Shown piece by piece: positions 17,413 to 53,800 of a stretch of DNA of 64,000 nt (the first letter of the stretch is position 1; every line of letters begins with the position of its first letter). The stretch is from Eutreptiella sp. 'Long Island Sound 2002' (taxonomy: Eukaryota > Euglenozoa > Euglenophyceae > Eutreptiales > Eutreptiaceae): contig OZ038382.1 in the NCBI GenBank assembly GCA_964036045.1, positions 130,510,556 through 130,574,555 on the forward strand, written 5' to 3'. Under the pieces are notes generated by a model, which was not told the origin of the DNA, did no database searches, and was given only the letters and a program-made list of their open reading frames with translations. The position numbers were made by a program, and so were the translations under genes.

Positions 17413-17470
17413 CTCAATTTACACCGAATTTACACAACTTTACACAAATTTACGCCACTTTTTGAGCAAT

Positions 17471-21105: not shown

Positions 21106-21112
21106 GAATAGT

Positions 21113-21545
21113 GAAACCCCTCCGTGGAACATTTAACCCCCTCCGTGGAATATCTCAAACCTGTGTGGAATATTTAAGCACCTCCATGGAATAGTTCATA
21201 CTTCCGTGGAACATTTGATTCCATCCGTGGAATATTTTAGCACCTCCGTGGAACATTTGACACCTCCGTGGCATATTTAACCCCCTCCGTGGAATAGTTC
21301 ATACCTCCGTGGAATACTTTATTCCTCCTTCTAATATTTCAGCACCTCTGTGGAATATTTGACATCTCTGTGGACTGTTTAAGCCCCTCCGTGGAATATT
21401 TGACACCTTCGTGGAATGTTTAAGCACCTCCCCGGAACATTTCATACCTCCGTGGAATATCTAACCCCCTCCGTAGAATGTTTCATACCTGTGTGGAGTG
21501 TTACATACCTCCGTGGAATATTTAACCCCCTCCCTAAGATGTTTC
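21113..21545 (-). repeat. Satellite A, inverted block
   Basis: Units read as the reverse complement (cctccgtggaatattt), so orientation flips at about 21,106-21,112, inside gtgaatagtgaatagtg. The block ends where non-satellite DNA begins. Confidence 0.9.
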
Positions 21546-29300: not shown

Positions 29301-30315
29301 GTGCTTAAATATTCCACGGAGGTATGAAATATTTCACGGAGGTGCTCAAATATTCCACGGAGTTTTGAGATATTCCACGGAGGGGGTTAAATATTCCACG
29401 GAGGGGGTTGATATTCCACGGAGGTGTCAAATATTTCACGGTGGGGGTCAAATCTTCCACGGAGGTATGAAATATTCCACAGAAGTGCCTAAATATTCCA
29501 GGGAGGGGGTCAAATATCCCACGGAGGGGATGAAATATTCCACTAAGGTATGAAATATTCCACGGAGGGGGTGAAATATTTCACGGAGGTATGAAATATT
29601 CAACGGAGGTACTTAAACATTCCACAGAGGTGTCAAATATTCCATGGAGGGGCTTAAACCTTCCACGGAGGTGCTGAAATATTCCACGGAGGTGCTGAAC
29701 TATTTCACGGGGGTATGAAATATTCCACGGAGGTGCTTAAATGTTCCACGGAGGTTTGAGGTACTGAACGGAGGTGGTTAAATATTCCATGGATGTTTCA
29801 AATATTCCACGGAGGTGTCAAATATTCCACGGAGGTGCTGAACTATTTCACGGAGGTATGAAATATTCCACGGAGGTCCTTAAATGTTCCACGGAGGTTT
29901 GAGGTATTGAACGGAGGTGGTTAAATATTCCATGGATGGTTCAAATATTCCACGGAGGTGGCAAATATTCCACGGAGGTGCTGAAATATTACACGGAGGT
30001 GTCAAACATTCCACGCCGGGGGTCAAAGATTCCACGGAGGTATGAAATATTCAACGGAACTGCCTAAATATTCCACGGAGGTGTGAAATATTCCACGGAC
30101 GGGGTTAAATATTCCATGGAGGTGCACAATATTCCACGGAGGGGCGAACACATTGCACGCAGGTGTCAACTATTCCACGGAGGGGCTTAAATATTCCACG
30201 GAGGTATGAAATATTCCACGGAGGTGCCTAAATGTTTTACGGAGGTGCTTAAACGTTCCACGGAGGTATGAAATATTTCACGGAGTGGGTTAAATATTCC
30301 ACGGAGGTTTGAGAT
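23384..30315 (+). repeat. Satellite A, main left block
   Basis: About 6.9 kb of AATATTCCACGGAGG units, period 20-21 bp. Spacers fall into a few classes: GTGTC(A), GTATG(A), GTGCTT or GTGCCT, and GGGGTT/GGGGTC/GGGGTG. Longer order exists: the stretch around 24,690-25,690 is repeated at about 1.0 kb further on (for example cacaccacggcggtgtc near 25,213 and 26,220). Open frames (repeating SNIPRRGLNIPRRCQIFHGG) are a result of the repeat. The last 8 bases (tttgagat, 30,308-30,315) are the left target-site duplication of the giant hAT insertion. Confidence 0.95.
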
Positions 30316-30429
30316 CAGGATTGTGTATAAAGTCTGATGTCTGATGTCTGATAAGGGATGTTGTGTGTGCGGTCTGTCCAAGAAGATGTCTGATATTCTC
30401 ATCTACTGGAGGTGGGTCTAGGGGTCTAA

Positions 30430-30640
30430 TGCCTAGAGGGAATTGGGAGAAACTATGCCTAAATCTAAATCAACCCCCCCCCAAAATGAAGAAAACAAAA
30501 AGGGAGGACACAATTGAAAAATCATTGGGGAACCACCTTGGACAATCAGAAACATGGCAGTAAAAAAGGAAAAAGACTTTGAACACCAAAATGGGAAAAT
30601 GGGGAAAATGTGTGAGCAAGGAAAGTGGCAAACAAAAAGG
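30430..30640. other. Sub-terminal non-repetitive segment of the giant hAT
   Basis: A-rich, purine-rich sequence between the left terminus and the 10-bp minisatellite. No coding signal. Confidence 0.4.
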
Positions 30641-31482
30641 TGCCCATAGGCCCCCATAGGCCCCCATGGGCCCCCAAAGGTTCCCATCGGTCCCCAAAGG
30701 TGCCAATAGGTCCCCATAGGCCCCCATAGGCCCCCATAGGCCGCCATAGGCCCCCATAGGCCCCCAAAGGTGTCCCGAGGTGCCCATAGGTCCCCAAAGG
30801 TCCTCCTAGATGCCAATGAGTCCGCGGCGGCCCCCATAGGTCTCCATAGGTCCCCAAAGGTGCCCATAGGTCCCCACAAGCACCCATAGGCCTCCACAAG
30901 CCCCCATAGGTCCCCATAGGCCCCTATAGAGGCCCATAGGCCCCCATTGGGCCCCAAAGGTGCCCATAGGCCCCAGTAGGTCCCCATAGACCCCAAAAGG
31001 TCCCCATAGGCCCCCGTAGGCCCCCATAGGCCCCCATAGGCCCCAAAAGGTCCCCATAGACCCCTTAAGGCCTCCAAAGATGCCCATAGGTCCCCAAAGG
31101 TGCCAATAGGCCCCCGTAGGCCCCCATGGGCCCTCATTGGCCCCCATAGGCGCCCATAGGCCGCCAAAGGTCCCCATAGGCCCCCATAGGTCCCCAATGG
31201 TGCCAATAGGCCCCAATAGGTCCCCACAAGCACCAATAGGCTCCCATAGGTCCCCATAGGCCCCCATATGTACCTACAGGCCCCCATAGGCCTCCACAAG
31301 CCCCCATAGGTCCCCATAGGTCCCCATAGGCCCCAATAGGCCCCCATAGGCCCCCAAAGGTGCCCATAGGCCCCCATAGGTCCCTACTGGCCCCCATAGG
31401 CCTCCACAAGCCCCCATAGGTCCCCATAGGTCCCCATAGGCCCCCATAGGCCCCAATAGGCCCCAATAGGCCCCCAGAGCAG
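30641..31482. repeat. 10-bp minisatellite CCCCCATAGG, block 1
   Basis: About 84 units of cccccatagg and variants (tccccatagg, tgcccatagg, ccccaaaagg). Three units make 30 bp, so the reverse strand reads as an endless 10-residue repeat (GAYGGLWGPM) without stops; this is not evidence of a protein. It ends at a 13-G run. Confidence 0.9.
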
Positions 31483-31499
31483 GGGGGGGGGGGGAGTGC

Positions 31500-31600
31500 A
31501 AATGAACTATCCAAAGAATGCAGTGCAAAAAAATGCAAAAAAGTGCAAATATGTGCAAAAAAGTGCAAAAAAATGCAACCATAAAAATGCAATGACAAGG
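31500..31600. repeat. (GTGCAAAAAA)n simple repeat
   Basis: Repeats of tgcaaaaaagtgcaaa flank the transposase remnant on this side and again at 32,195-32,275. Confidence 0.75.
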
Positions 31601-31673
31601 CAACACAATACACAACAGTGCACTACACAATGCGCTCCAAACGAAACATTGAATAGTGCTCTTGGTTTCGGCA

Positions 31674-32149
31674 TTACGCCACTTTGAACCTACCTTCCAC
31701 ATCACCATTGAACATCAACATCGTTGTCAAGCGGCGGGTGTTATTTGGCAGACCATGCCCATACTTCGTATCCATATTGCCAGCCAAACTGAAACTTCTC
31801 TCGACACTTGCAGAAGGTGTTGGCACATGGATCAAAAAGAATTGCCCGCTTTGCAAGATCACCTCCACGGTTGGCCCAAAATAAAGCCAAAGCACTCGCA
31901 CTGTCAATGGAATGATTCTCAACCCGACAATATGTATGCCACTCAGCCCTAAACTCAGCATCATCGATGGGACACTGGAGGGCTGTCAGGTTTTTTAAAT
32001 CGTGGTGCAAATCAGCAAGCTGATGTTTTTGACTTCTTTGCCTTGGGCTCATCATCATCACTGTCACTCTCCAGCAAATCAGGTTCATTTTGCTCTTCCT
32101 CATCATTTGTATGTGCCTGCGCACCAGCTTCTGGCTGCGTCACGGACAT
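31674..32149 (-). pseudogene. hAT transposase C-terminal remnant of the giant element
   Basis: On the minus strand from ATG 32,149: MSVTQPEAGAQ, an acidic stretch (LLESDSDDDEP), a Lys-rich patch (KAKKSKTSA), a frameshift, then LADLHHDLKNLTAL, EFRAEWHTYC and ALALFWANRGGDLAKRAIL, a second frameshift near a T5 run, then VPTPSASVERSFSLAG, GHGLPNNTRRLTTMLMFNG and TAA. The FW...LAxxAxxxLxVPxxSASxERxFSxAG string is the hAT C-terminal dimerisation signature. The N-terminal RNase H core is absent. The piece is flanked on both sides by tgcaaaa repeats and the 10-bp minisatellite, so the original gene has been broken up by repeat growth or deletion. Confidence 0.8.
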
Positions 32150-32289
32150 CAAAAAAGCGAAAACAGCTGTGACAGGGCAGTGGAAACAAGTGAAAAAAAT
32201 GCAAAAAAGTGCAAAAGGTGCAAAAAATGGCTCAAAGTGAAAAGTGCCAAAAAAAATGGAAAAAAGTGCATTTGCACTTTCCCCCCCCC

Positions 32290-32625
32290 CCCTGCCCAAA
32301 GGTCCCCATAGGCCCCCATAGGTCCCCCTAGATGCCGATGAGTCCCCATCAGCCCCCATCCCCATAGGTCCCCAAAGGTGCCCAAAGGTCCCCATAGGTC
32401 CCCAAACTTCCCCGTAGACCCCCATGGCCCCCCAAAGGTCCCCGTAGGTCCCCATAGGTCCCCAAGGACCCCCATAGGTCCCCATAGAACCCCATAGGTC
32501 CCCATAGACCCCCATAGGCCCCCAAAGGTCACTAAAGGTCCCCATAGGCCCCCATAGGTCTGCAAATGTCCCCAAAGGTGCCCATAGGTCCCCAAAGGTC
32601 CCCATAGGCCCCCATAGGCCCCATG
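32290..32625. repeat. 10-bp minisatellite GGTCCCCATA, block 2
   Basis: About 33 units of the same 10-bp family as block 1, here mostly ggtccccata, beginning just after a C-run. It passes directly into satellite B at about 32,620. Confidence 0.9.
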
Positions 32626-35600
32626 CCCATGCGTCAGTTATCTGGGGGGTGTAGACCCGCAAAATATTTGACGGATGTATGTCCGTCAAATATTTGGGGG
32701 GTCTACACCCCCAAAGCGTTTGACGGATGTAAGTCCGTCAAATATTTGGGAGGTCTACAGCCCCAAAATATTTGACGGATGTATGTCCGTCAAATATTTG
32801 AAGCTTGCCCATGCGTCAGTTATGTGGGGGGTGTAGACCGCCAAAATATTTGACGAATGTATGTCCGTCAAATATTTGGGGGGTCTACACCGCCAAAATA
32901 TTTGACAGATGTATGTCCGTCAAATATTTGACGCATGCCCATGCGTCATTTATCTGGGGGGTGTAGACCCCCAAAATATTTGATGGATGTATGTCCGTCA
33001 AATATTTGCGGCGTCTACACCTGCAAAATGTTTGACGGATGTGGATCGGTGAAATATTTTGGGGGTGTAGACCCCCAAAAATATTTGACGGATGTATGTC
33101 GGTCAAATATTTGACCCATGCCCATGCGTCAGTTACCTGGGGGGTAAACACCACCAAAATATTTGACGGGTGTCTGTCCGTCAAATATTTGGGGGGTCTA
33201 CATCCGCAAAATATTTGACGGATGTTTGTCCGTCAAACATTTGGGGGGTCTACACCGCCAAAATATTTGACGGATGTATGTCCGTCCAAAATTGGGGGGG
33301 TCAACAGCCCCAAAAAATTTGACAGATGTATGGGCATCAAATATTTGGGGGGTCTACACCCTCAAAATATATGACGGATGTATGTCCGTCAAATATTTGG
33401 GGGGTCTACACCCCCGAAATGTTTGTCGGATGTATGTCCGTCAAATATTTCGGGAGTCAACGACCCCGAAATATTTGACGGATGTATGGCAATCAAATAT
33501 TTGGACGGTCTACACCCCCGAAATATTTCACGGATGTATGTCGGTCAAATATTTGACGCATGCCCATGCGTCAGTTATCTGGGGGGTGTAGACCCCCAAA
33601 ATATTTGACGGATGTATGTCCGTCAAACATTAGGGGGGTCTACACCCCCGAAGTATTTGACGGATGTACATCCGTCAAATATTTGACCCATGCCCATGCG
33701 TCGGTTATCTAGGGGGTGTAGACCCCCAAAATATTTGTCGGATGTATGTCCGTCAATTATTAGGGGGGTCTACACCCCCGAAGTATTTGACGGATGTATG
33801 TCGGTAATATTATGTGGGGGCTCACCACACCGAAATGTTTGACGGATGTATGGCAGTCAAATATTTGGGGGTCTATCCCCCCAAAATATTTGACGGATTT
33901 ATGTTGGTGAAATATTTGACGCATGCCCACGCGTCAGTTATCTGGGTGGTGTAGACACCCAAAATATTTGACGGATGTATGTCCGTCAAATATTTGTTAT
34001 CTGGGGGGTGTAGACACCCAAAATAATTGACGGATGTATGTCCGTCAAATATTTGGGGCGTCTACACCTGCAAAATATTTGAGGGATGTGGATCGGTCAA
34101 ATATTTTGGGGGTCAAAACCCCCAAAACGTTTGACGGATGTATGTCTGTCAAATGTTTGGGGGGTCTACACCCCCAAAATATTTGACGCATGTTTGTCCG
34201 TCAAAAATTTGGGGGGTCCACACCCCCAAAATATATGACGGATGTATGTCCGTCAAATATTTGGGGGGTCAACACCCCGAAGATATTTGACAGATGTATG
34301 GCCGTCAAATATTTGGGGGGTCTACACCCCCAAAATATTTGACGGATGTATGACCGTCAAATATTTTACGCATGCCCATGCGTCAGTTATTTGGGGGGTG
34401 TAGACCCCAAAAACATTTGACAGATGTATGTCCGTCAAATATTAGGGGGGTCTACACCCCCAAAGTATTAGACGGATGTATGTCCGTCAAATATTGGACG
34501 CATGCACATGCGTCACTTATCTTGGGGGTGTAGACCCCCAAAATATGTGACGGATGTATGTCCGTCAAATATTTGGGGGGTCTACGGCCCAAAAAAATTT
34601 GACGGATGTATGTCCGTCAAATATTTCACGCATGCCCATGCGTCAGTTATCTGGGGGTGTACACCCCCAAAATATTTGACGGATGTATGTCCGTCAAATA
34701 TTAGGGGGGTCTACACCCCCAAAGTATTTGACGGATGTTTTTCCGTCAAATATTTGACGCATGCCCATGCGTCAGTTATCTGGGGGGTGTAGACACCCAA
34801 AATATTTGACGGATGTATGTCCGTCAAATATTAGGGGGGTCTACACCCCCGAAGTATTTGACGGATGTATGTCCGTCAAATATGTGAGGGGTCACCATCC
34901 CCGAAATATTTGACGGATGTATGTCCGTCAAATATTTGACGCATGCCCATGCGTCAGTTATCTGGGGGGTGTAGACACCCAAAATATTTGACAGATGTAT
35001 GTCCGTCAAACATTAGGGGGGTCTACACCCCCAAAGTATTTGACGGATGTACGTCCGTCAAATCTTTGGGGGGTCTACACCCCCCAAATATTTGACGGAT
35101 GTATGTCCGTCAAATATTTGACGCATGCCCATGCGTCAGTTAATTGGGGGGTGTAGACCCCCGAAATATTTGACGGATGTATGTCCGTCAAATATTTGGG
35201 GGGTCTACAGCCCCAAAATATTTGACGGATGTATGTCCGTCAAATATTTTGGGAGTCCACACCCCCAAAATATTTGACGGATGTATGTCCGTCAAATATT
35301 TGACGCATGCCAATGCGTCAGTTATCTGGGGGCTGTAGACCCCCAAACTATTTGACGGATGTATGTCCGTCAAATATTTGGGGGGTCTGCACCCCCAAAA
35401 TATGTGACGGATGTATGTCCGTCCAATATTTGGGGGGTCTACAGCCCCAATATGTTTGACGGATGTATGGCCGTCAAACATTTCGGGGGTCCACACCCCC
35501 AAAATATATGACGGATGTATGTCCGTCAAATACTTGGGGGGTCTACACCCCCAAAATGATTGACGGATGTATGTCCACCAAATATTTGGGGGGTCGACAG

Positions 35601-38600
35601 CCCCAAAATGTTTGACGGATGCATGTCCGTCAAATATTTCGGGGGTCAACACCTCCAAAATGTTTGACGGATGTATGTCCGTCAAATATTTGGGGGGTCA
35701 ACAACCCCAAAATATTTGACAGATGTATGTCCGTCAAATATTTGGGGGGTCTACATCCCCAAAATATTTGACGGATGTATTTGCGTCAAATATTTGACGC
35801 ATGCCCATGCGTCAGTTATTTGAGGGGTGTATACCCCAAAAATATTTGACGGATGTATGTCCGGCAAATATTTGGGGGGTCTACATCCCCCAAAGTATTT
35901 GATGGATGTATGGCCGTCAAATATTTCACGCATGCCCATGCGTCAGTTATCTCGGGGTGTACACCCCCAAAATATTTGACGGATGTATGTCCGTCAAATA
36001 TTTGACACATGCCCATGCATCAGTTATCCGGGGGGTGTAGACCCCCGAAATATTTGATGGATGTAGGTCCGTCAAATATTTGGGGGGTCTACATCCCCCA
36101 AAGAATTTGACGGATGTATGTCAGTCAAATATTTGACGCATGCCCATGCATCAGGTATCCGGGGGGTGTAGACCCCCAAGATATTTGACGCATGTATGTC
36201 CGTCAAATATTTGGGGGGTCTACATCCCCCAAATATTTGAGGGATGTATGTCCGTCAAATATTTGACGCATGCCCATGCGTCCGTTATTTGAGGGTCGTA
36301 TACCCCCAAAATATTTGACAGATGTATGTCCGTCAAATATTTCGGGGGTCTACACCCCCGAAATTTTTGACGGATTTATGTCCGTCAAATATTTGACGCA
36401 TGCCCATGCGTAAGTTATCTGCTGGGTGTAGACCCCCAAAATATTTGACGGATGTATGTCCGTCAAATATTTGGGGGGTCTACACCCCCAAAATATTTGA
36501 CGGATGTATGTCCGTCAAATATTTGACGCATGCCCATGCGTTAGTTGTTTGGTGGGTGTAGACCCCCAAAATATTTGACGGATGTATGTCCGTCAAATAT
36601 TTGGGGGGTCTACACCCCCGAAACATTTGACGGATGTATGTCCGTCAAATATTTGATGCATGCCCGTGCGCCAGTTATGTGAGGGGTGTAGACCCCCGAA
36701 ATATTTGACGGATGTATGTCCGTCAAATATAAGGGGGGTCTACATCCCCCAAAGTATTTGACGGATGTATGTCCGTCAAATATTTGGGGGGTCTACATCC
36801 CCCAAATATTTGACAAATGTATGTCCGTCAAATATTTGACGCATGACCATGCGTCAATTATCTGGGGAGTGTAGACTCCGCAAAATATTTGACCGATGTA
36901 TGTCCGTCAAATATGTGGGGGGTCAACAGCCCCAAAATATTTGACGGATGTATGTCCGTCAAATATTTGGGGGGTCTACACCCCCAAAATGTTTCACGGA
37001 TGTATGTCCGTCAAATATTTGGAGGGTCAACACCCCCAAAATATTTGACGGATTTGGGGGGTCTACACCCCAAAAATATTTGACGGATGTATGTCCGTCA
37101 AATATTTAACGCATGCCCATGCGTCAGTTATCTAGGGGTGTAGACCCGCAAAATATTTGACGGATGTATGTCCGTCAAAAATGTGGATGGTCAACACCCC
37201 CAAAATATTTGACGGATGTATGTCCGTCAAATATTTGACGCATGCCCATGCCTCAGTTATCTGGGGGCTGTAGACCCCAAAAATATTTGACGGATGTCCG
37301 TCAAATACTTGGGGGGTCTACAGCCCCAAAATGCTTGACGGATGTATGTCCGTCAAATTCTGGGGGGTCTACACCCCCAAAAGGTTTGACGGATGTATGT
37401 CCGTCAAATATTTGACGCATACCCATGCGGCAGTTATCTGGGGGGTGTAGACCCACAAAATATTTGACGGATGTATGTCCATCAAATATTTTGGGGGGTC
37501 TACACCCCCAAAATATTTGACAGATGTATGTCCGTCAAATATTTGGGGGGTCTACACCCCCAAAATTTTTGACGGATGTATGTCCGTCAAATATTTAACG
37601 CGGGCCCATGCGTCAGTTATCTAGGGGTGTAGACCCGCAAAATATTTGACCGATGTATGTCCGTCAAATATGTAGAGGGTCAACAGCCCCAAAATATTTG
37701 ACGGATGTATGTCCGTCAAAAATTTGACGCATGCCCATGCCTCAGTTATCTGGGGGCTGTAGACCCCAAAAATATTTGACGGATGTCCGCCAAATACTTG
37801 GGGGGTCTACAGCCCCAAAATGCTTGACGGATGTATGTCCGTCAAATTTTGGGGGGTCTACACCCCCAAAAGGTTTGACGGATGTATGTCCGTCAAATAT
37901 TTGGGGGGTCAACACCCCCAAAATATTTGACGGATGTATGGCCGTCAAATATTTCGGGGGTCCACACCCCCAAAATATTTGACGGATGTATGTCCGTCAA
38001 ATATTTGACGCATGCCCATGCCTCAGTTATCTGGGGGCTGTAGACCCCAAAAATATTTGACGGATGTCCGTCAAATACTTGGGGGGTCTACAGCCCCAAA
38101 ATGCTTGACGGATGTATGTCTGTCAAATATTTGGGGGGTCTACAGCCCCAAAATTTTTGACGGATGTATGTCCGTCAAATATTTGACACATGCCTATGTG
38201 TCAGTTATGCGGGGGGTGTAGACCCCCGAAATATTTGACGGATGTATGTCCGTCAAACATTTGGGGGGTCTACATCCCCAAATATTTGACAGATGTATGT
38301 CCGTCAAATATTTCACACATGCCCATGCGTCAGTTATCTGGGGGGTGTAGACGCCCGAAATATTTGACGGATGAATGTCCGTCAAATATTTGACGCATGC
38401 CCATGCGTCCCTTATCTGAGGGGTGTATACCCCCAAAATATTTGACGGATGTATGTCCGTCAAATATTTGGGGGGTCAACACCCCCAAAATATTTGACGG
38501 ATGTATGGCCGTCAAATATTTTGGGGGTCTACACCCCCAAAAGATTTGACGGATGTATGTCCGTCAAATATTTGACGCATGCCCATGCGTCAGTTATCTG

Positions 38601-41600
38601 GGGGGTGTAGACCCACAAAATATTTGACCGATGTATGTCCGTCAAATATTAGGGGGGTCTACACCCCCGAAGTATTTGATGGATGTATGTCCGTCAAATA
38701 TTTGGGGGGTCTACATCCCCAAAATATTTGACGGATGTATTTCCGTCAAATATTTGACGCATGCCCATGCGTCAGTTATTTGAGGGGTGTATACCCCCAA
38801 AATATTTGATGGATGTATGGCCGTCAAATATTTTTGGGGTCTACAGCCCCCAAATATTTGACGGATGTATGTCCGTCAAATATTTGACACATGCCCATGC
38901 ATCAATTATTTGGGGGGTGTAGACCCCCGAAATATTTGATGGATGTAGGTCCGTCAAATATTTGGGGGGTCTAGACCCCCCAAATATTTGACGGATGTAT
39001 GTCCGTCAAATATTTGACGCATGCCCATGCGTCCGTTATTTGAGGGGTGTATACCCCCAAAATATTTGATGGATGTATGTCCGTCAAATATTTTGGGGGT
39101 CAACAGCCCCAAAATATTTGACGGATGTATGTCCGTCAAATATTTGGGGGGTCTACAGCCCCAAAATGCTTCACGGATGTATGTCCGTCAAATATTTGGA
39201 GGGTCAACACCCCCAAAATATTTGACGGATTTGGGGGGTCTACACCCCAAAAATATTTGACGGATGTATGTCCGTCAAATATTCAACGCATGCCCATGCG
39301 TCAGTTATTTAGGGGTGTAGACCCGCAAAATATTTGACGGATGTATGTCCGTCAAAAATGAGGATGGTCAACACCCCCAAAATATTTTACGGATGTATGT
39401 CCGTCAAATATTTGACGCATGCCCATGCCTCAGTTATCTGGGGGCTGTAGACCCCAAAAATATTTGACGGATGTCCGTCAAATACTTGGGGGGTCTACAG
39501 CCCCAAAATGCTTGACGGATGTATGTCCGTCAAATTTTGGGGGGTCTACACCCCCAAAAGGTTTGACGGATGTATGTCCGTCAAATATTTGGGGGGGACA
39601 ACACCCCCAAAATATTTGACGGATGTATGGCCGTCAAATATTTCGGGGGTCCACACCCCCAAAATATTTGACGGATGTATGTCCGTCAAATATTTGACGC
39701 ATGCCCATGCCTCAGTTATCTGGGGGCTGTAGACCCCAAAAATATTTGACGGATGTCCGTCAAATACTTGGGGGGTCTACAGCCCCAAAATGCTTGACGG
39801 ATGTATGTCCGTCAAATTTTGGGGGGTCCACACCCCCAAATAGTTTGACGGATGTATGTCTGTCAAATATTTGGGGGGTCTACAGCCCCAAAATTTTTGA
39901 CGGATGTATGTCCGTCAAATATTTGACACATGCCCATGCGTCAGTTATGTGGGGGGTGTAGACGCCCGAAATATTTGACGGATGAATGTCTGTCAAATAT
40001 TTGACGCATGCCCATGCGTCCCTTATCTGAGGGGTGTATACCCCCAAAATATTTGACGGATGTATGTCCGTCAAATATTTGGGGGGTCAACACCCCCAAA
40101 ATATTTGACGGATGTATGGCCGTCAAATATTTTGGGGGTCTACACCCCCAAAAGATTTGACGGATGTATGTCCGTCAAATATTTGACGCATGCCCATGCG
40201 TCAGTTATCTGGGGGGTGTAGACCCACAAAATATTTGACCGATGTATGTCCGTCAAATATTAGGGGGGTCTACACCCCCAAAGTATTTGATGGATGTATG
40301 TCCGTCAAATATTTGGGGGGTCTACATCCCCTAAATATTTGACGGATGTATTTCCGTCAAATATTTGACGCATGCCCATGCGTCAGTTATTTGAGGGGTG
40401 TATACCCCCAAAATATTTGATGGATGTATGTCCGTCAAATATTTGGGGGGTCTACACCCCCAAAATATTTGATGGATGTATGGCCGTCAAATATTTTTGG
40501 GGTCTACAGCCCCCAAATATTTGACGGATGTATGTCCGTCAAATATTTGACACATGCCCATGCATCAGTTATTTGGGGGGTGTAGACCCCCGAAATATTT
40601 GATGGATGTAGGTCCGTCAAGTATTTGGGGGGTCTAGACCCCCCAAATATTTGACGGATGTATGTCCGTCAAATATTTGACGCATGCCCATGCGTCCGTT
40701 ATTTGAGGGGTGTATACCCCCAAAATATTTGATGGATGTATGTCCGTCAAATATTTTGGGGGTCTACACCCCTGAAATATTTGACGGATGTATGTCCGTC
40801 AAAAATTTGATGCATGCCCATGCGTCGGTTATCTGGTGGGTGTAGACCCCCAAAATATTTGACGGATGTATGTCCGTCAAATATTTGGAGGGTCTACACC
40901 CCCGAAATATTTGACGGATGTATGTCCGTCAAATATTTGACGCATGCCTGTGCGCCAGTTATGTGAGAGGTGTAGACCCCCGAAATATTTGACGGATGTA
41001 TGTGCGTCAAATATTAGGGGGGTCTACATCCCCCAAAGTATTTGACGGATGTATGTCCGTCAAATATTTGGGGGGTCTACATCCCCCAAATATTTGACAA
41101 TGTATGTCCGTCAAATATTTGACGCATGACCATGCGTCAATTATCTGGGGAGTGTAGACTCCCCAAATATTTGACGGATGTATGTCCGTCAAATATTTGG
41201 GGGGTCTACACCCCCAAAATATTTGACGGATGTATGTCCGTCAAATATTTGGGGGGTCTACAGCCCCAAAATATTTGACGGATGTATGTCCGTCAAATAT
41301 TTAACGCATGCCCATGCGTCAGTTATCTGGGGGTGTAGACCCGCAAAATATTTGACAGATGTATGTCCGTCAAACATGTGGGGGGTCAACAGCCCCAAAA
41401 TATTTGACGGATGTATGTCCGTCAAATATTTGGGGGGTCTACACCCCCAAAATGTTTCACGGATGTATGTCTGTCAAACATTTGGGGGGTCAACACCCCC
41501 AAAATATTTGACGGATTCGGGGGGTCTACACCCCCAAAATATTTGACGGATGTATGTCCGTCAAATATTTAACGCATGCCCATGCCTCAGTTATCTGGGG

Positions 41601-42459
41601 GCTGTAGACCCCAAAAATATTTGACGGATGTCCGTCAAATACTTGGGGGGTGTACAGCCCCAAAATGCTTGACGGATCTATGTCCGTCAAATTTTGGGGG
41701 GTCTACACCCCCAAAAGGTTTGACGGATGTATGTACGTCAATTATTTGGGGGGTCAACACCCCCAAAATATTTGACGGATGTATGGCCGTCAAATATTTC
41801 GGGGGTCCACACGCCCAAAATATATGACGGATGTATGTCCGTCAAATATTTGGGGGGTCTACAGCCCCAAAATTTTTGACGGATGTATGTCCGTCAAATA
41901 TTTGACACATGCCTATGTGTCAGTTATGTGGGGGGTGTAGACCCCCGAAATATTTGACCCATGTATGTCTGTCAAACATTTGGGGGGTCTACACCCCCAA
42001 ATATTTGACAGATGTATGTCCGTCAAATATTTCACACATGCCCATGCGTCAGTTATTTGGGGGGTGTAGACGCCCGAAATATTTGACTGATGAAGGTCGT
42101 CAAATATTTGACGCATGCCCATGCGTCCGTTATCTGAGGGGTGTATACCCCCAAAATATTTGACGGATGTATGTCCGTCAAATATTTGGGGGGTCAACAC
42201 CCCCAAAATATTTGACGGATGTATGCCCGTCAAATATTTTGGGGGTCTACACCCCCAAAATATTTGACGGATGTATGTCCGTCAAATATTTGACGCATGC
42301 CCATGCGTCAGTTATCTGGGGGCCGTAGACCCACAAAATATTTGACCGATGTATGTCCGGGAAATATTAGGGGGGTCTACACCCCAGAAGTATTTGACGG
42401 ATGTATGTCCGTCAAATATTGGACACATGCCCATGTGTCAATTACCTAGGGGTTGTAGA

Positions 42460-42765
42460 CGCCCCCAATATTTGACGGACATACATCCGTCAAATACTTT
42501 GGGGGTGTAGACCCCCAAATATTTGACGGACATACATCCGTCAAATATTGGGGGGGTCTACACCCCCCAGGTAATTGACGCATGGGCATGCGTCCAATAT
42601 TTGACGGACATACATCCGTCAAATACTTCGGGGGTGTAGACCCCCCTAATATTTGACGGACATACATCCGTCAAATATTTTGGGGGTCTACACCCACCAA
42701 ATAACTGACGCACGGGAATGCGTCAAATATTTGACGGACATACATCCGTCAAATATTAGGGGGGT
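42460..42765 (-). repeat. Inverted block within satellite B (copy 1)
   Basis: The hairpin loop reads CATACA instead of TGTATG (gacggacatacatccgtc) and the third module reads gacgcatgggcatgcgtc, so this segment is in reverse orientation. A similar reversed block lies at about 45,105-45,365. Confidence 0.85.
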
Positions 42766-45104
42766 CTACATCCCCCAAATATTTGACGGATGTATGTCCG
42801 TCAAATATTTGACGCATGACCATACTTCAGTTATTTGGGGAGTGTAGACTCCCCAAATATTTGACGGATGTATGTCCGTCAAATATGTGGGGGGTCAACA
42901 GCCCCAAAATATTTGACGGATGTATGTCCGTCAAATATTTGGGGGGTCTACACCCCCACAATGTTTGACAAATGTATGTCCATCAAATATTTGGGGGGTC
43001 AAAACCCCCAAAAATTTGACGGATTTGGGGGATCTACACCCCCAAAATCTTTGACGGATGTATATCCGTCAAATATTTGACGCATGCCCATGCGCCAGTT
43101 ATCTAGGGGTGTAGACCCGCAAAATATTTGACAGATGTATGTCCGTCAAATATGTGGGGGGTCAACACCCCCAAAATATTTGACGGATGTTTGTCCGTCA
43201 AATATTTGGGGGGTCTACACCCCCAAAATGTTTGACCGATGTATGTCCGTCAAATATTAGGGGGGTCAACACCCCCAAAATATTTGACGGATGTATGTCC
43301 GTCAAATATTTGGCGCATGCCCATGTGTCAGTTATTTGGGGGTGTAGAGCCGCAAAATATTTGACGGATGTATGTGTGTCAAATATGTGGGGGTCAACAC
43401 CCCCAATATAGATGGATGTATGTCCGTCAAATATTTGGGGGGTCTACGGCCCCAAAATGTTTCACAGATATGTCCGTCAAATATTTGGCGGGTCAACACC
43501 CCCAAAATATTTGACGGTTTTGGGGGGTCTACACACCCAAAATATTTGACGGATGTATGTCCGTCAAATATTTGGGGGGTCTACGGCCCCGAAATATTTG
43601 ACGGATGTATGTCCGTCAAACATTTGACGCATGCCCATGCGTCCGTTATCTGGGGGGTGTGGAACCCCAAAGTATTTGAAGGATGTATGTCCGTCAAATA
43701 TTGGGGGGGTCTACACCCCCAAAATATTTGACGGATGTATGTCCGTCAAATATTTGGGGGGTCTACACCCCCAAAATATTTGACGGATGTATGTCCGTCA
43801 AATATTTAACGCATGCCCATGCGTCAGTTATCTGGGGGTGTAGACCCGCAAAATATTTGACAGATGTATGTCCGTCAAATATTTGGGGGGTCTACACCCC
43901 CAAAATATTTGACGGATGCATGTCCGTCAACTATGTGGGGGGTCAACATCCCCAAAATATTTGACGGATGTATGTCCGTCAAATATTTGGGGGGTCTATA
44001 CCCCCAAAATATTTGACGGCTGTATGTCCGTCAAATATTTGACGCATGCCCATGCGTCAGTTATCTGGGGGATGTAGACCCCAAAAATATTTGACGGATT
44101 CATGTCCGTCAAATGTTTGGGGGTCTACACCCCCCAAATATTTGACGGATGTATGTCCGTCAAATATTTGGGGGGTCAACACCCCCAAAATATTTGACGG
44201 ATGTTTGTCCGTCAAATATTTGGGGGGTCTACACCCCGAAAATTTTTGACGGATGTATGTGCGTCAAATATTAGGGGGGTCTACATCCCCCAAAGTATTT
44301 GACGGATGTATGTCCGTCAAATATTTGGGGGGTCTACATCCCCCAAATATTTGACAATGTATGTCCGTCAAATATTTGACGCATGACCATGCGTCAATTA
44401 TGTGGGGAGTGTAGACTCCCCAAATATTTGACGGATGTATGTCCGTCAAATATTTGGGGGGTCTACACCCCCAAAATATTTGACGGATGTATGTCCGTCA
44501 AATATTTGGGGGGTCTACACCCCCAAAATATTTGACGGATGTATGTCCGTCAAATATTTCACGCATGCCCATGCGTCAATTATCTGGGGGTGTAGACCCG
44601 CAAAATATTTGACAGATGTATGTCCGTCAAATATGTGGGGGGTCAACAGCCCCAAAATATTTGACGGATGTATGCCCGTCAAATATTTTGGGGGTCTACA
44701 CCCCCAAAATATTTGACGGATGTATGTCCGTCAAATATTTGACGCATGCCCATGCGTCTTTTATCTGGGGGCCGTAGACCCACAAAATATTTGACCAATG
44801 TATGTCCGTCAAATATTAGGGGGGTCTACACCCCAGAAGTATTTGACGGATGTATGTCCGTCAAATATTGGACGCATGCCCATGTGTCAATTACCTAGGG
44901 GTTGTAGACGCCCCCAATATTTGACGGATATATGTCCGTCAAATATTTGACGCATGCCCATGCGTCAGTTATCTGGGGGGTGTAGACCCACAAAGTATTT
45001 GACCAATGTATGTCCGTCAAATATTAGGGGGATCTACACCCCAGAAGTATTTGACGGATGTATGTCCGTCAAATATTGGAGGCATGCCCATGTGTCAATT
45101 ACCT

Positions 45105-45365
45105 GGGGGTTGTAGACGCCCCCAATATTTGACGGACATACATCCGTCAAATACTTTGGGGGTATAGACCCCCAAATATTTGAGGGACATACATCCGTCA
45201 AATATTGGGGGGGTCTACACCCCCCAGGTAATTGACGCATGGGCATGCGTCCAATATTTGAGGGACGTACATCCGTCAAATATTTTGGGGGTCTACACCC
45301 ACCAAATAACTGACGCACGGGAATGCGTCAAATATTTGACGGACATACATCCGTCAAATATTAGG
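45105..45365 (-). repeat. Inverted block within satellite B (copy 2)
   Basis: Same reversed orientation as 42,460-42,765, with the same flanking phrases (gggttgtagacgccccc before it, gacgcatgaccat after it). The two are related by a segmental duplication of about 2.4-2.6 kb. Confidence 0.8.
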
Positions 45366-48300
45366 GGGGTCTACATCCCCCAAATATTTGACGGATGTAT
45401 GTCCGTCAAATATTTGACGCATGACCATGCGTCAATTATTGGGGAGTGTAGACTCCCCAAATATTTGACGGATGTATGTCCGTCAAATATGTGGGGGGTT
45501 AACACCCCCAAAATATTTGACGGATGTATGTCCGTCAAATATTTGGGGGGTCTACACCCCCACAATGTTTGACAAATGTATGTCCATCAAATATTTGGGG
45601 GGTCAAAACCCCCAAAAATTTGACGGATTTGGGGGATCTACACCCCCAAAATATTTGACGGATGTATATCCGTCAAATATTTGACGCATGCCCATGCGCC
45701 AGTTATCTAGGGGTGTAGACCCGCAAAATATTTGACGGATGTATGTCCGTCAAATATGTGGGGGGTCAACACCCCCAAAATATTTGACGGATGTTTGTCC
45801 GTCAAATATTTCGGGGGTCCACACCCCCAAAATGTTTGACCGATGTATGTCCGTCAAATATTTGGGGGGTCAACACCCCAAAAATATTTGACGGATTTGG
45901 GGGGTCTACACCCCCAAAATATTTGACGGATGTATGTCCGTCAAATATTTGGCGCATGCCCATGTGTCAGCTATTTGGGGGTGTAGACCCGCAAAATATT
46001 TCCCGGATGTATGTCTGTCAAATATGTGGGGGTCAACACCCCCAAAATAGATGGATGTATGTCCGTCAAATATTTGGGGGGTCTACGGCCCCAAAATGTT
46101 TCACAGATATGTCCGTCAAATATTTTGCGGGTCAACACCCCCAAAATATTTGACGGATTGGGGGGGTCTACACACCCAAAATATTTGACGGATGTATGTC
46201 CGTCAAATATTTGGGGGGTGTATAACCCCAAAATGTTTGACGCATGTATGTCCGTCAAATATTTGGGGGGTCTACGGCCCCGAAATATTTGACGGATGTA
46301 TGTCCGTCAAACATTTGACGCATGCCCATGCGTCTGTTATCTGGGGGGTGTGGAACCCCAAAGTATTTGAAGGATGTATGTCCGTCAAATATTGGGGGAG
46401 TCTACACCCCAGAAGTATTTGATGGATGCATGTCTGTCAAATAGTTGACGCATGCCCATGCGTCAGTCACCTGGGGGGTGTAGACCCCCAAAATATTTGA
46501 CGTGTGAATGTCCGTCAAATATTTGGGGGGTCTACACCCCCAAAATATTTGACGGATGTATGTCCGTCAACTATGTGGGGGGTCAACATCCCCAAAATAT
46601 TTGACGGATGTATGTCCGTCAAATATTTGGGGGGTCTATACCCCCCAAATATTTGACGGATGTATGTCCGTCAAATATTTGACGCATGCCCATGCGTCAG
46701 TTATCCGGGGGATGTAGACCCCAAAAATATTTGACGGATGTATGTCCGTCAAATGTTTGGGGGTCTACACCCCCCAAATATTTGACGGATGTATATCCGT
46801 CAAATATTTGGGGGGTCAACACCCCCAAAATATTTGACGGATGTTTGTGGGTCAAATATTTGGGGGGTCTACACCCCGAAAATATTTGACGGATATATGT
46901 CCGTCAAATATTTGACGCATGCCCGTGCGTCAATTATCTGAGGGGTGTAGACTCCCAAAATATTTGACGGATGTATGTCCGTCAAATGTTAGGGGGGTCT
47001 ACACCCCCGAAGTATTTGACGGATGTATGTCCGTCAAATATTGGACGCAGGCCCATGCGTCAATTACCTGGGGGGTGTAGACCCCCCCAATATTTGACGG
47101 ATGTAGGTCCGTCAAATATTTGGGGGTCTACACCCCCAAAGTATTTGACAGATGTATGTCCATCAAATATTTGGGGGGTCTACATCCCCCAAATATTTGA
47201 CGGATGTATGTCCGTCAAATATTTGACGCACTCCCATGCGTCAGTTATCTGGGGGTGTAGACCCGCAAAACATTTGACGGATGTATGTCCGTCAAATATG
47301 TGGGGGGTCAACACCCCCAAAATATTTGACGGATTCGGGGGGTCTACACCCCCAAAATATTTGACGAATGTATATCCGTCAAATATTTGACGCATGACCA
47401 TGCGTCAATTATCTGGGGAGTGTAGACTCCCCAAATATTTGACAAAGGTATGTCCGTCAAATATTTGGGGGGTCTAAACCCCCAAAATATTCGACGGATG
47501 TATGTCCGTCAAATATTGAACGCACTCCCATGCGTCAGTTATCCAGGGGTGTAGACCCCCAAAATATTTGACGGATGTATGTCCGTCAAATATGTGGGGG
47601 GTCAACACATCCAAAATATTTGACGGATGTATGTCCGTCAAATATTTGGGGGGTAAACACCCCCAAAATATTTGACGGATTTAGGGGGTCTACACCCCCA
47701 AAATATTTGACGGATGTATGTCCGTCAAATATTTGACGCATGCCTATGCGTCAGTTATCTGGCGGTGTAGACCCGCAAAATCTTTGACGGATGTATGTCC
47801 GTCAAATATGTGGGGGGTCAACACCCCCAAAATAGATGGATGTATGTCCGTCAAATATTTGGGGGTTCTGCACCCCCAAAATGTTTCAGGGATGTATGTC
47901 CGTCAAATATTTGGGGGTCAACACCCCCCAAATATTTGACGGATTTGGGGGGTCTACACCCCCAAAATATTTGACGCATGTATGTCCGTCAAATATTTGG
48001 GGGGTCTATAACCCCAAAATGTTTGACGGATGCATGTCTGTCAAGTATTTGGGGGGTCTACACCCCCGAAATATTTGACGGATGTATGTCCTTCAAATAT
48101 TTGACGCATGCCCATGCGTCAATTATCTGGGGGGTGTGGACCCCCAAAGTATTTGAAGGATGTATGTCCGTCAAATATTAGGGGGGTCTACACCCCGAAG
48201 TATTTGACGGATGTATGTCCGTCAAATAGTTGACGCATGCCCATGCGTCAGTTATTTGGGGGGTGTAGACCCCCGAAATATTTGACGGTTGTATGTCCAT

Positions 48301-49609
48301 CAACTATGTGGGGGGTCAACATCCCCAAAATATTTGACGGATGTATGTCCGTCAAATATTTGGGGAGTCTATACCCCCAAAATATTTGACGGATGTATGT
48401 CCGTCAAATATTTGACGCATGCCCATGCGTCAGTTATTTGGGGGATGTAGACCCCGGAAATATTTGATGGATGTATGTCCGTCAAATGTTTGGGGGGTCT
48501 ACACCACCCAAATATTTGACGGATTTATGTCCGTCAAATATTTGGGGAGTCTACACCCCCAAGATATTTGACAGATGTATGTCCGGCAAATATGTGGGGG
48601 GTCAACACCCCCAAAATATTTGACGGATGTATGTCCGTCAAATATTTGGGGGGTCTACACCCCCAAAATATTTGACGGATGTATGTCCGTCAAATATTTG
48701 ACGCATGCCCATGCGTCAGTTATTTGCGGGGTGTAGACCCCCAAAATATTTGACGGATGTATGTCCGTCAAATATTTAGGGGGTCTACACCCCCAAAATA
48801 TTTGACGGATTTATGTCCGTCAAATATTTGGGGAGTCTACACCCCCAAGATATTTGACAGATGTATGTCAGTCAAATATTTGACGCATGCCCATGCATCA
48901 GGTATCCGGGGGGTGTAGACCCCAGAGATATTTGACACATGTATGTCCGGCAAATATGTGGGGGGTCAACACCCCCAAAATATTTGACGGATGTATGTCC
49001 GTCAAATATTTGGGGGGTCTACACCCCGAAAATATTTGACGGATATATGTCCGTCAAATATTTGACGCATGCCCATGCGTCAGTTATCTGGGGGGTGTAG
49101 ACCCCCGAAATATTTGACGGTTGTATGTCCGTCAAATTTTTGGGGGTCTACAACCCCAAAATATTTGACGGATGTATGTCCGTCAAATATTTGACGCATG
49201 CCCATGCGTCAGTTATTTGCGGGGTGTAGACCCCCAAAATATTTGACGGATGTATGTCCGTCAAATATTTAGGGGGTCTACACCCCCAAAATATTTGACG
49301 GATTCATGTCCGTCAAATATTTGGGGAGTCTACACCCCCAAAATATTTGACAGATGTATGTCAGTCAAATATTTGACGCATGCCCATGCATCAGGTATCC
49401 GGGGGGTGTAGACCCCCAAGATATTTGACGGATGTATGTCCGGCAAATATTTAGGGGTCTACACCCCCAAAATATTTGACGGATGTATGTCCGTCAAATA
49501 TTTGGGGGGTCTACACCCCCGAAATATTTGACGGATGTATGTCCGTCAAATATTCGACGCATGCCACCCTGCCAAGTGGATAAATTATTTAGGGAGGGGG
49601 TATACAGCC

Positions 49610-50000
49610 CTCCCAAGTGGGGGGTATACAGGTGTCTAATGTGTCTAATGTTCCTCTGAGGGGGTATACAGGTGTCTAATGTGTCAAATGTTACACTAAG
49701 AGGGGTATACAGGTGTCTAATGTGTCTAATATTCCACTGAGGGTGGTATACAGCTGTCGACTCTGTCTAATGTTTCACTGAGGGGGGTATACAGGTCTGT
49801 AATGCGTTTAATGTTCCACGGAGAGGGGTATACAGGTGTCGAATGTGTCCAATGTTCCACTGAGGGGGGTATACAGGTGTCTAATGTGTCTAATGTTCCA
49901 CTGAGGGGGGTATACAGGTGTCGAATGTGTCCAATGTTCCACTAAGAGGGGTATACAGGTGCGTAATGTGTCTAATGTTCCACCAAGAGGGGCAAACAGG
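49610..50000. repeat. About 41-bp tandem repeat (gggtatacaggtgtctaatg)
   Basis: Nine to ten units of gggtatacaggtgtctaatg followed by tgtctaatgttccactgagg. It lies between satellite B and the right sub-terminal region of the giant hAT. Confidence 0.85.
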
Positions 50001-50865
50001 TGTCAAGGGGGTGCCTGGGGGAGTGGTGCCCCATCCACCCTCCACCGGAACTAACTTAGGAACGGAGTAACATACCTGCTATTTTATTTTTTTTGGGGTT
50101 CGGACCTTGGTAAGCTGGCGGGAAAGCACTCTACTAGCAAAGAAAACTTGAAAAAGAAAACCAGGCATACCCTCCCTAACCTCAACCACACAAGCAGGGA
50201 AATGAGAGGGTGGCAAGGAGGGAGGGAGGGAGGGGAGGGAGGGAGGGAGGGAGGGAGGCTCGTTTGGGCGGCCGTAGGGATTGTGTTGTGCTGTGTTGTG
50301 CTGTAATATGCTGTGCTATGCTGTATGTTGTGCTCTGCTGTGGTGTGCTGTGATGTGCTGTGATGTGCTGTGATGTGCCGTGCTGTGCTGTGCCATGCTC
50401 GAAACCCACTACCCCCCCTCTCAACAGTTCCAGCCCAACCCGATGAACCCCAACCCACCCACCCCACCAGCAAAACTGACCCGATTAGCTCAGGTGAGGT
50501 TGCTTGGGCCAGACATCAGGGTTCTGTTCCCACTGTCTTCGGTCACACATCAGCCCCCCAATCGGTTTGAGTCGGAGAGATGGGGTGGGGTGGGGTGGGG
50601 TGGGGGGGGGGGGGGGGGCACGTACCATCATTGAAGGGGTTGCAAGCATTGGTTGTGTTTCAGACGCTAGGGTGGAGACCACAACCCACTTCTACACCTC
50701 AAGGGTGTGGTGACAATGGGACAAATCTCATATTGGAGGGGAAATGGGGGGGGGCGAAGTCTGAGAAGGGGGGGGGGGGGTTAGAAAGGGTGTTGGGGGG
50801 GGGGGGGTTGGGGGTGATGGTCCATAAAAGTGTGATGTCTGATGTCTCATAGCCGACTAGGTCGC
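50001..50865. repeat. Right sub-terminal region of the giant hAT: simple repeats and G-runs
   Basis: Contains (GGGA)n at about 50,215-50,255, a tgtgctgtgatg repeat at about 50,283-50,395, tggggtggggtgggg with a G16-type run near 50,580-50,618, and more G-runs near 50,745-50,812. At 50,149-50,185 the phrase aaaaagaaaa..(g)gcataccctcc resembles the intron of the hAT gene at 12,853-12,880. Sub-terminal gatgtctgatgtct lies at 50,834-50,847. No coding frame recognised. Confidence 0.7.
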
Positions 50866-50879
50866 TATACACAATCCTG

Positions 50880-53800
50880 TTTGAGATATTCCGCGTAGGT
50901 GCTTGAATATTCCACGGAGGTGTCAAATATTCCACGGAGGGGGTCAAATATTCCAAGAGGTGTCAAATATTTGAGGGAGGGGCGTAAACATTCCACGGAG
51001 GTGTCAAATATTCCACCACGGGGGTAAAATATTCCAGGGAGGTGCTGAAATATTCCACGCAGGTGTCAAATGTTCCTCAGAGGGGGTCAAATATTCCAAG
51101 GAGGTTTCAAATATTCCACGGAGGTGTCAAATGTTCCAAAGACGGGCTTGGACATTCCACGGAGGTACGAAACATTCCACGCAGGTGACTAAACATTCCT
51201 AACCGGTGTCAAATATTCCACGGAGGGGGTGAAATATTCCACGGAGGTGTAGAATATTCCACAGAGGTATGAAATATTCCACGGAGGTATGAAATATTCC
51301 ACGGAGGTGGTTAAATGTTCCACGGAGGTGTCAAATGTTCCAGAGAGGAGGTTAAATGTTCCAGGGAGGTATGAAATATTCCACGGAGGGGCTTAGACAT
51401 TCCACGGAGGTGTCAAATATTCCACATACGGGGTTAAATATTCCACGGAGATGTCAAATATTCCATGGAGCTGCTGCAATATTCCACGGAGGTGTCAAAT
51501 ATTCCACGGAGGTGTCAAATATTCCACCAAGAGGGTTAAACATTCCACGTAGTTTGTCAAATATTCCACGGAGGGGCCTGAACATTCCACGGAGGTGTCA
51601 AATATTCCACCGAGGGGGTAAAATATTCCAAAGATGTATGAAATATTCGACAGAGGTGCTGACATGTTCCACGGAGGTGTCAAATATTCCACGGAGGGGG
51701 TCAAATATTCGACGGAGGTATGAAATATTCCACGAGTGTGCTGAAATAATACACGGAGGTGCGAAATATTTCATGGAGGGGGTGAAATATTCGACGGAGG
51801 TATCAAATATTCCACGAAGGTGCTTAAATATTCCACGGAGGTGTCAAGCGTTCCACGGAGGGGATCAAACATTCCATGGGTCTATGAAATATTCCACGGA
51901 GGTGCTTAAATATTCCACGGAGGGGGTTACAAATTCCACGGGGGTGTGAAACATTCCATGGAAAAGCCTAAATATTGCACGCAGGTGTCAAATATTCCAC
52001 GGAGGTGGCAAACATTCCAAGGAGGTATTAAATATTCCACATGGGTGCTTAAATGTTCCACGGAGGTGTCAAATATTCCACGGAGGGGATCAAATATTCC
52101 ACGGAGGTATGAAATATTCCGCGGAGGTGCTTAAATATTCCAAGGAGGGGGTTACATATTCCACGGAGGTGCCAAATATTCCACGGAAACGCCTAAAAAT
52201 TCCACGGAGATGCTTAAATATTCCACATAGGTATGAAATGTTCCACGGAAAAGCCTAAATATTCCACAAAGGGGGTTAAATATTCCACGGAGGGATGAAA
52301 AATTCCACGGAGGTGGTTAAAAGTTCCACGGAGGTGTCAAATATTCCACGGAGGGGGTTAAATATTGCACAAGGGTATGAAATCTTCCACGGAGGTGCCT
52401 ATATATTCCACGCAGGTGTCAAATATTTCACAGAGGGGGTTAAATATTTCACGAAGGTGTCAAATATTCCACGGAGGGGCGTAAACATTCAACGGAGGTG
52501 TCATATATTCCACGGAAGTCCTTAAATATTCCACGGAGGTGCCTAAATATTCCACGCAGGTGTCAAACATTCCACAGAGGGGGTTAAATATTCCACGGAG
52601 GTAGGAAACATTCCAAAGAGGGGGTGTATTCCACACAGGTATGAAACATTCCAGGGAGGTGCTTAAATATTCCACGCAGGTGTCAAAGATTCCACGGAGG
52701 TGTCAAATATTCCAAGGAGGTATTAAATATTCCACATGGGTGCTTAAATGTTCCACGGAGGTGTCAAATATTCCACGGAGGGGATCAAATATTCCACGGA
52801 GGTGTGAAATATTCTGCCGAGGTGCTTGAATATTCCACGGAGGGGGTTACATATTCCACGGAGGTGTCAAATATTCCACGGAAAGGCCTAAAAATTGCAA
52901 GGAGATGCTTAAATTTTCCACATAGGTATGAAATATTCCAAGGAAAAACCTAAATATTCCACGGAGGTGTCAAGTATTCCACGGAGGGGGTTGAATATTC
53001 CATAGAGGGATGAAAAATTCCACGCAGGTGGTTAAAAGTTCCACGGAGGTGTCAAATATTCCGGAGAAGGGGTTAAATATTGCACAAGGTATGAGATATT
53101 CCACGGAGGTGCCTAACTATTCCACGCAGTTGTCAAATATTCCAAAGAGGGGGTTCAATATCGCACGGAGGTATGAAACATTCCATGGAGGGGGTGTATT
53201 CCACGCACGTATGAAACGTTCCGGGTAGGTGCTTAAATATTCCGCGGAGGTGCTCAAATATTCTAGGCAAGTATGAAACGTTTCACGGAGCGGGTTAAAC
53301 ATTCCACGGAGGTATCAAATATTCCACGGAGGTGTCAAAGGTTCCACGGAGGGGGTTAAATATTCCACAATGGTATGAAACATTCCACGGAGGTGCTTAA
53401 ATGTTCCGCGGAGGTGCTTGAATTTTCTGCGCAGGTATGAAATATCTCGCGGAGGGGGTTCAATATTCCACGGAGGTATCAAATATTCCACAGACGTGCT
53501 TGAATATTCCAAGGAGGTGTCAAATGTTCCACGGGGGGGGGGGGTAAACATTCCACGGAAGTGTCAAATGTTCCACGGAGGGGCGTAAATATTCCACGGA
53601 GGTGCTGGAATATTCCACGCAGGTGGTTAAATATTCCATGGAGGTATGAAATTCCACGGAGGTGCCTAAATATTCCACACAGGGGGTTAAATATTCCTCG
53701 GAGGTGTCAAATATTCCATGGAGGGGCGTAAACATTCCACGGAGGTGTCAAATATTCCGGAGACGGGGTTAAAAATTCCACGGAGACTATGAAATATTCC

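Follow-up and report, generated by a model that had tools for sequence, protein, structure and literature searches.

Among the closest described relatives of the arrangement reported here are the miniature inverted-repeat transposable elements (MITEs) miDNA4 and Xstir of Xenopus, on which Scalvenzi and Pollet and Hikosaka and Kawahara have reportedly worked. In the sections of the published accounts that concern such arrays, both are elements with terminal inverted repeats (TIRs) whose internal repeat is present as a monomer or as an array, and for miDNA4 it has been proposed that a tandem repeat already in existence was captured and that short direct repeats played a part (PMC12628747, PMC9659126). 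The corresponding sections on other systems describe non-autonomous Cg_HINE Helentrons of Crassostrea gigas, which likewise place element ends around a tandem array and for which dispersal of tandem repeats has been proposed (PMC7492417), the foldback element Tetris of Drosophila virilis, whose internal tandem repeats also make kilobase-size satellite arrays (PMC4079207), and long terminal repeat (LTR) retrotransposons of Lathyrus sativus, in which short internal arrays occasionally expand (PMC7004042). As outlined in part of a review, satellites arise from internal arrays of MITEs and Helitrons, satellites are dispersed by transposable elements (TEs), and TEs insert in satellites (PMC12628747), and further TE-borne satellite cases, including MITEs, are tabulated in PMC9659126. 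Here we describe a 20.6-kb element in a 64,000-nucleotide stretch of contig OZ038382.1 from Eutreptiella sp. 'Long Island Sound 2002' (the window), which holds a 16.9-kb hairpin satellite, satellite B, between its ends and lies in another satellite, satellite A.

The element is a transposon-type insertion into satellite A that made an 8-bp duplication of its target (Table 1). Its TIRs are identical at 14 of 14 bp, with either copy found once in the window, the two copies of the target-site duplication (TSD) TTTGAGAT agree at 8 of 8 bp, and these boundaries delimit 20,564 bp within satellite A. Once a single TSD copy is removed the flanks join as ...CCACGGAGGTTTGAGAT/ATTCCGCG..., a normal satellite A phrase, and the left satellite A array contains 3 whole units reading ATTCCACGGAGGTTTGAGAT. 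The chance that two random satellite A positions have a common adjacent 8-mer is 0.0067. Leaving the TSD aside, TTTGAGAT occupies 7 of the 6,915 left-array positions and 0 of the 10,417 in the right array, which makes a true duplication of a left-array phrase the best interpretation of the right copy. The first-pass annotation of this DNA had claimed a perfect 14-bp TIR, a perfect 8-bp target duplication, flanks that rejoin to an ordinary satellite A phrase and, overall, a satellite-carrying transposon inserted in another satellite; all of this was borne out, the element coordinates to the base. A scan for perfect 10-bp TIRs with 8-bp TSDs was uninformative on its own, as it returned 8,491 pairs in the window; 59 of the 60 pairs listed lay inside satellites A or B, and one was 30316/50879. 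No N bases were present in the five stretches checked.

Satellite B fills most of the space between these ends. A dynamic-programming parse of 32632-49563 divided it into 649 units of about 26 bp, 568 of them exactly 26 bp, which fall into four hairpin unit types, designated P (TATTTGACGGATGTATGTCCGTCAAA, n = 274), Q (n = 201), M (n = 90), and q (n = 84). Each type is hairpin-forming by sequence, the core of q (TGTAGA) is the reverse complement of the Q core (TCTACA), and P mostly alternates with Q or with the pair Mq. The parse had no "other" state, so that every base was forced into a unit and the evidence lies in the fit rather than in an unbroken run; the cost was at most 4 for 90% of units and at most about 8.6 for 99%. 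The first and last parsed units fit badly, the array terminating in half M units. Mean identity of the 26-bp units to their type consensus was 95% for P, 92% for Q, 93% for M, and 91% for q.

Evidence for other copies consists of predicted proteins, that is, of peptides. Satellite B peptides were found in 70 proteins on contigs of 56 distinct sizes, and 7 of these 56 sizes recur among the 86 of the transposase matches described below, consistent with one genome or close relatives. Defining as junction-bearing those proteins in which 14 or more residues of non-B sequence adjoin B, we obtained 19 of the 70 proteins, with 21 such stretches. In P0149 (contig of 788,819 bp), sequence of the element's left end (30455-30576, 71-74% amino acid identity in two frames) runs directly into B, placing the satellite, at the peptide level, beside the left-end sequence of a relative. 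P0149 has the M unit by peptide pattern, as do 9 of the 70 B proteins, and belongs to the 20 proteins whose B is mainly of the window's subtype; 49 are mainly of another subtype, P0142 among them. In P0142 (contig of 402,683 bp), B is joined to the 10-bp minisatellite that also occurs in the element, and in P0159 the flank of B resembles (34-38% amino acid identity) the 149-bp repeat of 63046-64000. Three proteins on different contigs, P0130, P0137, and P0147, have in common a 72-residue flank beside B (97-99% identical) that was not found in the window and perhaps marks another vehicle for B. A search with the left-end open reading frame (ORF) returned two proteins, P0163 and P0164. The former (contig of 2,283,530 bp) has left-end sequence and a short 10-bp minisatellite followed by sequence absent from the window, and its first 67 residues had no window match at E below 0.1. 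Viral and genome contig collections, from which records of the source genome may be missing, yielded no exact satellite B pattern; the left end in the viral contigs and satellite A in the genome contigs likewise gave 0 matches each.

In the reading that we favour, and to which as a whole we give about an even chance of being right, a non-autonomous, probably hAT-like cut-and-paste element would have jumped into satellite A with a satellite B array already aboard. Its left end is related by homology to that of a transposon family in which coding members carry the P0001-type transposase treated below, and local duplication, partly recent and likely through unequal exchange or replication slippage at hairpins, would then have lengthened B to 16.9 kb. 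We infer that B was carried at transposition because it is a dispersed hairpin satellite that elsewhere adjoins left-end sequence of this family; for the present insertion, such transport would stand about level with later capture and the other rivals taken together.

Several observations weigh against this view. Flanks other than element sequence adjoin B in 17 of the 19 junction-bearing ORFs, and in 13 of the 19 the flank matches nothing in the window, so that B would spread largely without visible help from the element's family, each ORF representing a short stretch only. P0142 alone is weak evidence, its B being of the other subtype and the 10-bp minisatellite possibly occurring outside the family. 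P0163 and P0164 carry left-end sequence without B in the stretch visible. The siblings are peptides rather than DNA, and the right end, TIR, and TSD were seen in none of them. Elsewhere in the window a relative of the right end was not found, the best scores (32-39) being C-rich runs and the outermost 60 bases scoring 15-27.

The same 13 unmatched flanks would also suit a later entry of B into the already inserted element, say through an integrated extrachromosomal circle or recombination with another B array; B, as a promiscuous satellite joined to many sequences, would lend itself to this. No ORF repeats the element/B junction of the window, which also tells against the favoured reading: in P0149 the satellite begins about 0.26 kb from the left end, compared with 2.3 kb here, and the two element/B joins found elsewhere both differ from the window's, as repeated captures would give. 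Both edges of the array cut an M unit midway, at one and the same position, and have ATGCC in common, as would be left by a circle opened once; this identical edge phase is also expected from tandem duplication of a seed. Later entry would further require that two or more members of one transposon family had captured B independently; we consider it possible but on the improbable side.

Returning to the favoured reading, growth of the array is well attested. Every one of 167 windows of 300 bp had a non-self match within the array, with a median best identity of 94% and a maximum of 99.7%, so that some of the duplication is recent. A very old array and with it a strong clock argument for cargo, suggested by the low match (63-73%) of the long rows from Tandem Repeats Finder (TRF), were rejected in view of the 91-95% identity within types and the 99.7% duplicates; the TRF figure understates unit identity because the unit types are mixed. 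There was no sign that the palindromes are maintained by paired change, compensatory hairpin changes over all units of a set numbering 3 against 3.35 expected (300 shuffles) for P, 3 against 1.41 for M, and 0 against 0.38 for Q. That B grew in place from element sequence, with none aboard before insertion, would agree with this recent growth and with the established route by which internal repeats of MITEs expand into satellites. However, the presence of B on contigs of 56 distinct sizes and beside many flanks indicates that it probably arose elsewhere than here, and the unique parts of the element (30316-30642, 49566-49620, and 50005-50865) contain no unit-like seed, their best local scores against the four units being 8-21, whereas 50 shuffles, run for a single region and a single unit, averaged 15 and peaked at 24. 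Such an origin is thus very unlikely in our estimation. A clock offers a weak argument for cargo: at 5-8% divergence per site since insertion, all 22 TIR and TSD pairs would be equal with probability 0.11-0.03, and at 2% with probability 0.42. With duplications as recent as these, the clock cannot separate growth before insertion from growth after it, a further point against our reading. The annotation's alternatives, that the satellite grew in place or moved as cargo, proved a false choice; growth was recent, and junctions of element sequence with B occur in ORFs from elsewhere than this contig.

Misassembly is a hazard of long tandem arrays, and both ends could belong to one short element, B having been placed between them when two loci were misassembled. 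The stretches checked contain no N bases, and ORFs on other contigs likewise join element sequence to B, which makes such an artefact, to our minds, a slight prospect.

The family of the element can be approached through its left end. A diverged relative of it in the window (9322-9366; Table 1) aligned with a score of 50, compared with a maximum of 27 in 20 shuffles, and lies upstream of two decayed ORFs for a P0001-type transposase. For the first of these ORFs, 92 of 7,995 scored candidates were homologous at E up to 0.001. We infer that this left-end copy and the decayed ORFs form one element. P0164 (contig of 55,595 bp) joins a transposase tail (window 11362-11126, 49% amino acid identity) to left-end sequence (30636-30499, 70%), and the 20.6-kb element thus has left-end sequence in common with coding P0001-type members. 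P0020, one of the homologues of the transposase ORF, additionally aligns to the window from 20.5 kb down to 18.7 kb. Inverted GTGTAAATTT-rich repeats (14279-14336 and 17427-17484, 78%) enclose a segment of about 3.2 kb. The transposase gene may be interrupted by this segment, which holds an endonuclease fragment (15226-15870; Exo_endo_phos, 3.4e-07), perhaps of the long interspersed nuclear element (LINE) type.

An 8-bp TSD and a short TIR are features of hAT transposons. The element has both, its 14-bp TIR beginning with CAGG, and we take TTTGAGAT to agree with the nTnnnnAn target preference of hAT. By eye, the motif order of the P0001-type proteins (D..DGASN..C..HRIRW..ERA) is hAT-like, and among 28 aligned sequences, counting covering rows only, D1 was kept in 5/5, D2 in 14/14, and E in 20/23. 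The P0001-type transposase matched neither hAT nor any other transposase in Pfam, and no transposase in PDB, where the only matches were to a P450 at E 8.5 and to tropomyosins at E 0.4-0.6; an AlphaFold prediction for P0001 (pLDDT 36) gave no usable model and was not used for a fold search. Membership of the P0001-type family in hAT is therefore likely rather than established, and the designation "hAT-type" in the first-pass annotation is backed by the 8-bp TSD and CAGG TIR, not by a transposase of the element's own. KDZ/Zisupton, P, and Merlin are other superfamilies with 8-bp duplications. Origin of the element in one of these rather than in hAT, which would be independent of how B arrived, is rather doubtful; it would accord with the lack of a transposase match in Pfam or PDB and with a UCH-like ORF upstream (17471-18235), while the hAT-like motif order and the conserved D1, D2, and E speak against it. 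The 28 P0001-type proteins match six Pfam families at E up to 1, none of them KDZ/Zisupton, whose coverage in Pfam was unchecked. The UCH-like ORF (E 5e-05; 23.4 bits against a Pfam cut-off of 23.9) shares its decayed tract with the transposase. Neither tRNA genes (bacterial code) nor Rfam families at gathering score were found in the window.

Outside satellite B, the interior agrees with the annotation's description of about 17 kb of palindromic satellite plus minisatellites, with refined coordinates. The annotation had also assigned the element a broken transposase C-terminus. A relic of this kind is present, spread over more than one frame; its PDB matches up to E 10 were four Hermes-type hAT transposase sequences only (E 0.1; including 6dww and 2bw3), Pfam gave no hAT match, and PTPSASVERSFSLAGN fits the hAT C-terminal signature by eye. 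Its membership in the 20.6-kb element is doubtful. The relic lies in an 815-bp block that we take as nested because it splits the minisatellite in two and carries inverted ends of its own (CAGGGGG...GTGCAAATG), and the Hermes-like sequence would thus probably belong to a small nested element rather than being the outer element's transposase. No clean TSD surrounds the block, and a G run accounts for part of the match between its inverted ends. The 20.6-kb element yielded no intact transposase. A separate block at 2357-3352 also has inverted CAGGGGGGGGGGGGATTT ends and resembles a small DNA transposon.

Satellites A and B may be kin. We aligned seven pairs of units, each against 300 shuffles: for A with P, A with the 41-bp minisatellite unit, and P with M, no shuffle reached the observed score, whereas 6 did so for P with Q, 10 for A with Q, and 6 for A with M, and the pair of P and the 41-bp unit was not significant (256/300). 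Common descent of satellites A and B is suggested by these unit alignments, and kinship of A, B, and the 41-bp unit would let satellite descent be followed across a transposon boundary. Satellite A is also present at 20877-21526 in both orientations, forward then inverted. Same-orientation copies of a 252-bp repeat (20345-20861 and 61482-61573; 84-86% identical) bracket satellite A; the repeat is located in an ORF at 20077-20880, and this bracket raises the possibility that satellite A is contained in a larger and older element or gene with its left end near 9316. At the far end of the window, a 149/460-bp tandem repeat (63046-64000) continues past the last base.

Table 1. Features of the element, its flanking satellite, and related sequences in the window.
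Feature	Position	Strand	Basis or remark
Left TIR CAGGATTGTGTATA	30316-30329	+	Sequence
Right TIR, reverse complement of CAGGATTGTGTATA	50866-50879	-	Sequence
TSD TTTGAGAT, left copy	30308-30315
TSD TTTGAGAT, right copy	50880-50887
Subterminal GATGTCTGATG	30336-30346	+	Second copy at 50834-50844, same strand
Satellite A, left part	23385-30307	+	20/21-bp unit ATTCCACGGAGGTGTCAAAT
Satellite A, right part	50888-61313	+
Satellite B	32623-49565		TRF rows 32632-49563, edges read in sequence; 16.9 kb
Left unique region	30330-30642		Homologous to parts of P0163, P0164, and P0149 (30455-30576)
10-bp minisatellite CCCATAGGCC, first block	30643-31476		TRF
Probable nested small element, 815 bp	31480-32294		Inverted ends CAGGGGGGGGGGGG..GTGCAAATG
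Frameshifted hAT transposase C-terminus (PTPSASVERSFSLAGN)	31680-32019	-	PDB matches, eye
10-bp minisatellite, second block	32295-32624		TRF
41-bp minisatellite, apparently satellite A-related	49621-50004		TRF, unit alignment
Right unique region	50005-50865
Diverged relative of element left end	9322-9366	+	37/45 bp identical to 30322-30366
Decayed P0001-type transposase ORFs	11662-13017, 13052-14302	-	Downstream of 9322-9366

How a satellite arrives at new chromosomal sites is an open question, and at this locus the vehicle family and the satellite can both be traced by sequence. It is a tentative proposal, in our judgement more apt to fail than to hold, that a family of TIR transposons with 8-bp TSDs routinely moves units of about 20 kb with a multi-kilobase hairpin satellite, seeding arrays even inside kindred satellites that would have a common ancestral 20-26-bp unit.

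With Hermes hAT transposons the element has an 8-bp TSD and a short TIR in common, and the resemblance of a transposase to Hermes comes through the probably nested relic. Among the papers listed in a literature search, judged largely by titles and the starts of abstracts, none described a hAT-type element with a multi-kilobase satellite. The annotation's further statement that it had seen no description of such a way to spread satellite arrays was wrong as a concept, since TE-borne arrays are known in Helentrons, MITEs, foldback, and LTR elements, and novelty is confined at most to the type and size of the vehicle. As in elements of the miDNA4 and Cg_HINE kind, the tandem array is enclosed by the element's own ends. 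In the passages devoted to them, however, miDNA4 and Xstir are miniature (for MITEs in general, about 400 bp is given), unlike the 20.6-kb element, and miDNA4 is classed as Tc1/mariner, not hAT (PMC9659126). Tetris, as characterized in the relevant part of its description, has its repeats inside the TIRs, whereas here the array lies between 14-bp TIRs (PMC4079207), and the Lathyrus arrays, in the corresponding account, belong to class I elements (PMC7004042). Cg_HINE is a Helentron, whereas the present element has TIRs and an 8-bp TSD; within the sections of that report on array structure, Cg_HINE arrays are mostly of 5 monomers or fewer, the longest having 29.3, with monomers averaging 140-180 bp, compared with 649 units and 16.9 kb here (PMC7492417). 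A model cited there expects longer arrays to lower mobility (PMC7492417), and this limit on array length would be put to the test by an intact-ended element that has an 8-bp TSD and encloses 16.9 kb of satellite.

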